From the NCBI GenBank assembly GCA_963921795.1, contig OY997658.1, positions 51,311,462 through 51,375,461 of the forward strand: a stretch of DNA of 64,000 nt, read 5' to 3'. The position numbers were made by a program, and so were the translations under genes. The stretch is from Nannobrachium achirus. Taxonomy: Eukaryota > Chordata > Actinopteri > Myctophiformes > Myctophidae. Numbering within the stretch: position 1 is the first letter of the stretch; each line of letters begins with the position of its first letter. A model generated the notes under the pieces. It had not been told where the DNA came from, did no database searches, and saw only the letters and a list, made by a program, of their open reading frames with translations. Positions 6,342 to 9,300 of the stretch are shown piece by piece.

Positions 6342-9300
6342 TCACTGCAGCTGTGAGAGAAGGACTGTGCAATCTTCAAGCGTTTCGAGCTCTTCCACCG
6401 CCTTAAGCAGCCCGTCAACCTTCTCAGGAGGAAGTATGAACCCTGCGTTGTCACAGAACTTCTTCCTCAGGCTGTCGGTGCTCAGTGGGTTGCGCCAGTG
6501 ACCGTAGAAGGTGTCACAGCGGCTCTTCAGGACGTCTCCTCCGGCCAGCGTCACCTGGACCAGTGGTGTAAAGTAACCAAGTACATTTGCTCAGGTACTG
6601 CAATTAAGTGCAATTTTGAACTATTTTTACTTTACTTGACTAATTCCAATTTTCTGTTCACCACATCTCAGAGGCAAATATTGTACTTTTACTCCGGTAT
6701 ATCATTTGCTTATTTGTAGATTTTGTTTATTATTACAAACCATACATTAACCACTTCAGCCCTATAGCATTTCAGCTATTTAATCTATACAACCTCATAT
6801 TTTCAAAAGATTTTTATACATTTGAAAACTTGTGAGATGGGACATTCTGCATAATGAGTACTTTCTTTTGATACCAATACTTTTGTACTTTTACGTAAAT
6901 TCTGAATTCCCGACTTTTCCTTGTAACACAGTATTTCTGTACTGCAGTATTGATACTTTTACTTAAGTAAATATTTTTAGTACTTTTTCCACCACTACCT
7001 GGATCTGGCAGTACATGCGGTCGAAGTTGGCCTTGTTGTCGTCCAGGTGCTGCACGCGGACGCGGCTCAACAGGGCTAGCAGCTCGGGGCGCCGCAAGGC
7101 GTCAGGGGAGAAGGACCACTGCGTCACCTCGCCGTCCAGGAGAGCACTGCAGGCGGTCAACTGGAAGGAGTGGCGTGCCTCGTGCTCAGAGGTGGGGTGG
7201 GGCCTGTTGACAGACCAGTCACAGTTATCTTCTATTAAAATATTATAATAATATTGGCTTAAAGCAGTGGTGCCATAGTTTTGTACTTTTTTTGTTTTGT
7301 ATGTGTCTAAGGAGTTAACATTTCTCTAAGTCTAGACCCCCAGTTGTGGTTATAATATGTATTTTTGGTTTCTTCCTGAAAAATTAAAGCCTCTGAGTCA
7401 AAAGGCCAAATCGAAAAACTCTGATTTAACAAGTAAGACGCCTTAAGGGGCGAGAAGCGACCGCAGGGTACAGGGAAACAATGACTTAAAAAATAGTCAT
7501 TGTAAATCTGGTAATGTACACACACACAAATACATGCCCTGCCAATCAGTGGGACAGCGCACGGCTGCAGAGACCTGGGCACATGAAAGGCAAAGGCACG
7601 CACGCTCCAAAGGTCGGATATGCACCCAGGCAGGGGTCGCAGCTGAGTGCAGTCAGCAGGGCAAACAAGACAGATTGTGTGTGTGTGTGTGTGTGTGTGT
7701 GTGTGTGTGTGTGTGTGTGTGTGTGTGTGTGTGTGTGTGTGTGTGTGTGTGTGTGTGTGTGTGTGAGTGGCATTACAGGCAAACAATACAGGCAAGAGTA
7801 ACGTGTGACACAATAGACCTTATTCACACCATGGCCATCTTGGATCACATGACTTCCTGGGATAGCAGCCTGCATTACAGACCATTGTGAACAATGGAGC
7901 GATGGTCCCAAAATATGAGTTCTATTCAACCATTTTCTTTTGACCAAATTGACAAATGGGCAGATGACAACAACAATATCCCCAAAAGGATTAAATAGAA
8001 GGGTACATCCACAATATTCATGGTAGTTAGGTTACACTGTTACTCTGTACAAAGACTTGCTACAGTATCTGTGCAGACTAGTGCTTGCTCTGCCATCATA
8101 TAGTTAATATTACTGTATCGTGATTTTTGCATATTAATGAGGAACAATCTAACAACAATAGTTAATATGATGGTGGAGCAAGCGCTGCACAGATAGCAAG
8201 TCTTTGTACACAGTAAGGTTGCAACCTAACTTACCTTGAATATCATTACCATAGATGTAATCAATCTACTGTAGCCCTTCTATTTAATCATTTTGGGGAT
8301 GTTGATGTTGTCATCTGCCCATTTGTCAATTTGGTCAAAAGAAATTGGTTGAATAGAACTCATATTTTGGGACCATCGCTCCAATGTTCACAATGGTTTG
8401 TAATGCAGGCTGCTATCCCAGGAAGTCTTGTGATCCAAGATGGCCGCGGTGTGAATAAGGTCTATTGCTGCAGGTTTTCACTGTAACTGCTCCCTGCAGT
8501 CGCAATGACATCATAAAATGATCCCCTCCCCTTTTACCATACACCTAACAAGGTGGGTGTGGCTAACTTCAGTTGGGTTAACACCCACTTGACAACCAGG
8601 CAAACTTAAGAACAGGTGGGTGTGGCCACAAAAAAAACACAATTCTAACTCTTTCTGTACACTTTTTGGGGAAAAAAATCTTCCTCCTAGTATAATCCTA
8701 ATACCTGATACCAGAATCTGAATGTGCATCAAGACGGTGTGGACAATAAAGACAGTTCAGAGTTGTTTAGAGGAATAGGCAAAGTGTATTTGGTACCAAG
8801 GAACAAGACCAAAAGCAGTTAATGCAATCGGAAAGAGTTCCATCAAGTTCCAAGATCTTTGATTTACATCAGTTCTTACAGTACAGTGATCCCTCCTTCA
8901 ACAGGTGAGGCAGGGCAAGAAGCTCACAGATGCATAACTAATACTTCTGTCACCTCCTTTTAGCAACCAGTCATGTTTTAGAGGGGAAACAAATCATGGC
9001 ACCCCATCTTTAAGGGAGGACATGCCGGCAGGTGGGCCGGCGGACAATGTCGTCACGCTCATGTCACTATGACTCAGCCATAAGCATATATAAGGAGTTC
9101 CCAATGCAGATATGCCCAAATATGGAGTGTGTTTAGTCAGGGAGCCACAGGCCCAAAAGCTCAAAGAATAAGGTTTTATCTGTGACGTCATGACATAGCC
9201 TACTTTTTATTTAAAATGTTTCTATTAATTTGGTCATTAAGGTACACAGAATGAGAGGCCTGCTCTGCCGGAAACATTGTCATCACAGGTCCTCTCAAAT

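Follow-up and report, generated by a model that had tools for sequence, protein, structure and literature searches.

Organization of the irg1l locus

The analysed window is a 64,000-nucleotide stretch of the Nannobrachium achirus genome that contains two adjacent genes. The first is an acod1-like gene (6342–28014, minus strand), located by tblastn with three fish homologues and modelled with nine exons and eight introns that have GT-AG sites throughout. The model has 497 codons and one stop, and its product retains both MmgE/PrpD Pfam domains (MmgE_PrpD_N and MmgE_PrpD_C). Among the matches listed, 'immunoresponsive gene 1, like' (irg1l) is the name given to many of the closest fish homologues, and cis-aconitate decarboxylase or cis-aconitate decarboxylase-like to others; the gene is referred to here as irg1l. 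A preliminary description of this DNA named the gene acod1 and described an intron that it numbered 7; this is intron 8 of 8 in the nine-exon model.

The homologue search found 747 irg1l homologues among 8000 scored candidates, and the best 120 of the 747 were compared. Among the matches listed, the best identity to homologues is 77% for irg1l and 75% for the neighbouring gene. The irg1l protein adjoins percomorphs in a 72-row tree, although this placement is unsure because its end branch is long (0.48 versus a median of 0.1).

The second gene (33196–45463, plus strand; end approximate) is a homologue of si:ch211-153b23.3 (YrdC plus GPR1/FUN34/YaaH-like), as indicated by homology, tblastn and Pfam. 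Its exon 2 contains the GPR1/FUN34/YaaH-like domain, and the YrdC domain is as listed for its homologues. Segments found by tblastn cover residues 1–895 of a Sebastes homologue, with no stops inside the exon parts.

Structure and predicted splicing of intron 8

Intron 8 of irg1l (6555–6998, minus strand), delimited by the exon model, a splice-pair scan and a script check of repeats, consists of a CAGTGG-type hAT-like MITE of 436 bp (copy C; 6561–6996) and one copy of an 8-bp target duplication. These 436 + 8 bases account for the entire 444-base intron, and there is no other sequence inside it. Copy C, recognized by inverted repeats, end pattern and blastn, reads CAGTGGTGTAAA...TTTTCCACCACT on the plus strand. 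The duplication copy on the donor side (6997–7004) is ATCCAGGT on the gene strand (ACCTGGAT on the plus strand), and that on the acceptor side (6553–6560) is GTCCAGGT (ACCTGGAC on the plus strand). The two copies are identical at 7 of 8 positions, and the sole mismatch falls in that portion of the acceptor-side copy which the model removes with the intron.

The terminal inverted repeat arms of copy C (6562–6572 and 6986–6996) are 11 nt long and 91% complementary, and at the right end the final G of the CAGTGG...CCACTG pattern is missing. The end pattern CAGTGGTGNAAAGTAAC occurs five times in the window at up to three mismatches (shuffle mean 0.82), a number reached in none of 100 shuffles. A blastn comparison of copy C with the window matches eight other places (E ≤ 2e-7), and over 379 positions copy C is 86% identical to a crude consensus built from the remaining copies in the window.

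Splice sites were scored with a weight matrix. The GT derived from the duplication is the best donor (5.2) and the AG the best acceptor (about 4.6–4.7) of the ranges scanned, and together they form the best of the four in-frame open pairs among 247. Splicing at this pair is predicted to give CAG-ATC-CAG|GTG-ACG with uninterrupted codons; without it, the irg1l frame encounters a TAA inside the element. The sites of introns 6 and 8 (donors 4.2 and 5.2; acceptors 2.3 and about 4.6–4.7) are weaker than those of introns 1–5 (donors 5.9–7.7; acceptors 5.5–13.0). From these predictions we infer that intron 8 is spliced at the duplication-derived sites.

The preliminary description had presented this intron as nothing but one MITE and one copy of its 8-bp duplication, with a junction at 6999/6554. 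Direct reading and the script bear out this composition, and the junction is that of the predicted intron. Its proposal that AG|GT within the duplication supplies both donor and acceptor and restores the codons agrees with the predicted splicing, as this is the best in-frame pair scanned, albeit with sites weaker than those of introns 1–5. Two details need amendment: the one mismatch between the flanking copies belongs to sequence that the predicted splicing removes, and assignment to a CAGTGG family has to allow for the absent G at the right end.

Introns 6 and 7 of irg1l

Most of irg1l intron 6 (11909–12841, minus strand, as predicted) is made up of a second CAGTGG-type MITE (copy A; 11927–12854), identified by blastn and sequence comparison. 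It has the same orientation as copy C and is interrupted by an AT run and by a palindromic element that lies nested in it. Copy A is 81% identical to the crude consensus of the other window copies over 398 positions and 75% identical to copy C over 411 positions. A repeat search shows that it is flanked by a direct repeat, GTCGTCGAGGGAGG (11913–11926 and 12855–12868), which comprises 14 bases of exon sequence rather than 8. Copies of a palindromic AAAGGAGTAGTTCACC element are located at 11973–12405 and 33573–33892, and one of them is nested in the MITE of intron 6.

For intron 6, the best open pair joins the donor AAAAG|GTACTC, which lies within the element, to an acceptor situated in the exon downstream. 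The predicted product contains 12 residues where SLDDEEYLF was presumably present originally, an increase of three, and none of the 120 compared homologues has as many residues in this stretch as the window model. This splice model is weak because the pair scores 6.8 versus 6.5 for the next, a lead of 0.3, and each of its sites is outscored by another in the range scanned. We rejected a precise mode of splicing for this intron: the 14-base repeat does not contain AG plus GT, no usable pair restores the presumed original sequence, and the 7 of 250 pairs that are open in frame all alter residues.

Intron 7 (7204–11718, minus strand; exon model and splice-pair scan) is filled by a TAGGG-ended element (7211–11717), defined by end comparison, with later insertions inside it. 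An 8-bp duplication, TCAACAGG, is present as exact copies (8/8) at both splice sites, on the donor side at 11718–11725 and on the acceptor side at 7203–7210. The element starts with TAGGG, so that in the donor CAG|GTAGGG the G comes from the end of the duplication and the T that follows it from the element; the splice sites are thus supplied by the duplication plus this T. The donor has the top score of its range (9.0) and the acceptor the runner-up score; as an in-frame pair they reach 15.1, versus 8.9 for the next. A repeat by chance was considered and set aside as less probable; 1027 of 200,000 random AG|GT / AG|G pairs of the window also match at eight positions.

A later MITE, CAAGGGTCTTC...GAAGACCCCTG (11340–11712), lies on the donor of intron 7 and is flanked by copies of CCCTACCT (11332–11339 and 11713–11720). 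This insertion (11332–11720) duplicated AGGTAGGG of the donor, giving the intron two donor copies. A relative of this MITE is situated at 41871–42301, in an intron of the neighbouring gene. Intron 7 also contains a palindromic repeat of ~660 bases (7811–8467) with arms that are ~80% identical.

Extra introns in the neighbouring gene

Three introns of the neighbouring gene, all on the plus strand, are of the same interest: intron 2 (35637–35768), intron 3 (36100–37094) and intron 4 (37280–37515, borders uncertain). Intron 3 corresponds to an element at 36107–37093, TAGGCCTGTCAC...GACAACTCTA, whose TAGGG-type ends lie at the two splice sites and whose flanking duplication is degenerate (36099–36106 and 37094–37101; 5 of 8 positions identical). 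A search for a source element for introns 2 and 4 returned only self-matches in the window at E ≤ 1e-3.

The donor-side end of irg1l intron 7 aligns with the acceptor-side end of neighbour intron 3 (t1/t4) with a local score of 33, reached in none of 1000 shuffles (largest 16). For the acceptor-side end of intron 7 and the other end of neighbour intron 3 (t2/t3), the flush score is reached in none of 2000 shuffles and by 5 of 20,000 random 20-mers, whereas the local score, reached in 68 of 1000 shuffles, is not significant. Within intron 7 the two ends do not resemble each other (729 of 1000 shuffles reach their score), and within neighbour intron 3 they do so only weakly (50 of 2000 shuffles flush, 568 of 1000 local). 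The window holds nine matches to the TAGGG-end pattern versus a shuffle mean of 4.08, with 4 of 100 shuffles reaching nine, so that enrichment is not clear.

Family assignment of the elements

Members of the hAT superfamily make 8-bp target site duplications, have short terminal inverted repeats and are mobilised by a hAT transposase. The window elements are called hAT-like from their termini and duplication length, and we regard their hAT membership, as well as their placement by insertion rather than another process, as inferred. An 8-bp duplication flanks the elements of intron 8 (7/8) and intron 7 (8/8); it is not clean at copy A, with its 14-base repeat, and is degenerate at neighbour intron 3. 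Among four window ORFs scanned with Pfam, only one has a transposase-like domain, DDE_Tnp_4 at 51236–51796, which is of a different type from hAT and which we take to be a Harbinger-type nuclease; none of the four shows a hAT transposase. A nearby ORF (49040–49780) has no Pfam match, and the two are possibly the remains of one transposon. An N run at 54451–54650, beside a GA microsatellite, is an assembly gap.

Gene structure in other fishes

None of the 120 compared homologues shows a gap at the intron 7 or the intron 8 junction, which is not in itself informative on introns. However, 25 of the 120 are short entries without the upstream exons. In twelve of these, all fish ORFs, a tail without homology immediately precedes RFHPP, with which window exon 6 starts, and from there they continue unbroken to the C-terminus; an annotated Nothobranchius protein (P0033) is built in the same way. 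The other 12 short entries have the next Met as their first residue and may derive from partial transcripts. We read the tails as translated intron sequence from contigs that are genomic or unspliced, an interpretation based on protein-level ORFs. As these ORFs have tails at RFHPP and are unbroken to the stop, everything between the start of exon 6 and the stop (~930 nt) would be a single exon in those fishes; in the window it is divided by three introns (6, 7 and 8), of which the preliminary description mentions the last alone, and the 12 tailed ORFs and P0033 run through the positions of all three. Intron 8 is most likely derived, since the tailed ORFs read through its site, in keeping with the earlier expectation that other teleosts would have no intron between the MYCQIQ and VTLAGG codons. 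In mammals, cis-aconitate decarboxylase chains are continuous at the intron 8 site at the protein level.

The neighbouring gene gives a similar picture. Intron 2 is absent from the three other-fish ORFs that cover its position (P0246 included), and introns 3 and 4 are each absent from seven. A tail follows WFRFAG in both P0239 and P0240; at intron 1, P0239 has in-frame sequence and P0240 starts in another tail. P0241–P0245 likewise end in tails after WFRFAG. Because these ORFs, in the numbers given, run through the positions of introns 2, 3 and 4, window exons 2–5 (~1500 nt) would correspond to one exon in those fishes. Taken with the three irg1l introns, this makes six introns that are absent from comparable ORFs of other fishes, four of them with hAT-like ends.

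These observations bear on the view that the introns are older than the elements and were lost in other fishes, or were made by tandem duplication within an exon or by break repair, with transposons filling them later. Irg1l intron 7 and neighbour intron 3 hold several repeats, and the search for a source of neighbour introns 2 and 4 gave only self-matches, as this view would allow. However, intron 8 holds nothing besides the element and its duplication. Moreover, the nearest named relatives of the read-through ORFs include Takifugu, catfishes and other percomorph fishes, and this spread over catfish-like, pufferfish-like and other sequences would require several losses if the introns were older. 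The ORF approach also does reveal introns that are shared, with tails at irg1l intron 5 and at neighbour introns 1 and 5. An older origin of the introns, or one by another route, is therefore highly improbable.

Fish DNA was also sought in a viral contig set; by protein alignment, none of 48 pattern matches is a relative, and a MITE word gave 0 matches.

Rate of evolution

The mean identity of irg1l to 12 acanthomorph fishes is 72%, whereas those fishes are 79–86% identical to each other, and its identity to three outgroups is 71–74% versus 78–80% for the other fishes. For the neighbouring gene, measured on a 621-residue piece, identity to the acanthomorph set is 75% versus 74–85% for the others, and identities to the outgroups (window versus others) are 76.7/76.0% for Aplochiton, 70.5/71.3% for Albula and 70.3/72.4% for Oncorhynchus. 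Irg1l is thus faster-evolving here than in the 12 acanthomorphs, and the neighbouring gene is not faster relative to the outgroups.

The lower identities of irg1l, its long end branch and the weak splice sites of introns 6 and 8 would all fit a gene that is dead or dying and is collecting transposons in its last exon, with the insertions real but not spliced. Against this, the 497-codon frame has only its one stop, although the elements that are nested in introns 6 and 7, or came into them later, have diverged from their other copies in the window by ~11% and ~19%, a divergence of which part predates insertion. In a simulation of 2000 frames without constraint, the share that stays stop-free is 16% after 5% change and 3.4% after 10% change, leaving aside frameshifts, for which the rate is an assumed one. 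The neighbouring gene, which does not evolve faster relative to the outgroups, also has extra introns. We consider a dead irg1l improbable, though less so than an older or other origin of the introns.

Proposed origin of the introns

We propose that intron 8 was made by a MITE insertion and that introns 6 and 7 were gained in the same exon from a second MITE copy and from the TAGGG-ended element; the structures described above make this origin very probable. A non-autonomous, hAT-like MITE would have inserted in one step into the CAG-ATC-CAG-GTG codons of an undivided last exon, with the staggered cut duplicating ATCCAGGT. Because the target held AGGT, the two splice sites could arise from the duplication copies, one becoming the 5′ splice site (CAG|GT) and the other the 3′ splice site (CCAG|G), with a T/C-rich element end just upstream of the acceptor. 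Splicing would remove the element and one copy of the duplication, and the protein would therefore be unchanged. The same exon would have gained intron 6 imprecisely from the second MITE copy, with a few residues changed, and intron 7 from the TAGGG-ended hAT-like element, the first T of which, placed beside a duplication ending in AGG, would complete the donor. The suggestion that intron 8 represents transposon-mediated intron gain, made in the preliminary description, is supported by its anatomy, its best-scoring site pair and the read-through ORFs.

A broader reading is that this lineage has undergone recurrent, perhaps genome-wide, intron gain from hAT-like MITEs of at least two families, with two large ancestral exons of ~930 and ~1500 nt cut to pieces of 185–331 nt (one of 714 nt) by elements that provide splice sites through their duplications. 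On balance we favour it, with less assurance than the origin proposed for the irg1l introns; if true, this would be a vertebrate with Introner-like intron gain.

Comparison with known intron gains

How spliceosomal introns arise is a long-standing question. Introns made by transposons are documented in algae and other small eukaryotes, in plants and in some invertebrates. The maize Ds element, a hAT element, reportedly acts as a new intron (Giroux et al. 1994). Intron 8 is similar in that a hAT-type element lies in an exon and is predicted to be spliced out, but Ds does so in a mutant allele whereas intron 8 is an intron of a vertebrate gene.

In the AGGT protosplice model, insertion duplicates AGGT to give an AG|GT donor and an AG|G acceptor with the coding sequence unchanged (Yenerall and Zhou 2012, PMC3443670). 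At the sequence level intron 8 fits this AGGT duplication case exactly, with both sites derived from the duplication and the coding unchanged, and intron 6, with its imprecise predicted splicing, does not. The 35 unambiguous transposon-insertion cases tabulated in that article stand under Oryza, Drosophila, Oikopleura and Zea, none of them a vertebrate, whereas intron 8 is in a fish.

The Introners of Gozashti et al. (2022, PMC9860276) are non-autonomous DNA transposons that lie within introns and show both duplications and inverted repeats, and the introns here likewise hold non-autonomous elements with such features. Splice sites of Introners come from the duplication, the element or the exon, and those of Aureococcus add codons (PMC9860276), as predicted intron 6 adds residues. 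One Introner family occupies different intron positions; in the window each of two families occupies two, the CAGTGG MITE in irg1l introns 6 and 8 and the TAGGG-ended element in irg1l intron 7 and neighbour intron 3. Introners have many near-identical genic copies (PMC9860276), whereas the copies here, counted within the window only, are diverged. According to the same article, Introners occur in two groups among animals and land plants, with no pattern in vertebrates. For human genes, 342 intron gains were reported in 2025, by methods described in that study as not designed for transposon and similar routes (PMC12124190).

A literature search limited to titles and the starts of abstracts, with most subscription papers outside its reach, returned no description of a vertebrate transposon-made intron, and the MITE sequence letters had no match in literature text. 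The mechanism is already known; what appears new is the vertebrate host, the diverged and ordinary MITEs, the involvement of at least two families and the recruitment of splice sites in different ways side by side. The locus may thus offer a rare close view of intron birth in a vertebrate. Two adjacent genes with six extra introns, one of which is reducible base by base, would make the insertion model, the choice of target and the fate of duplicated splice sites directly testable in a vertebrate.
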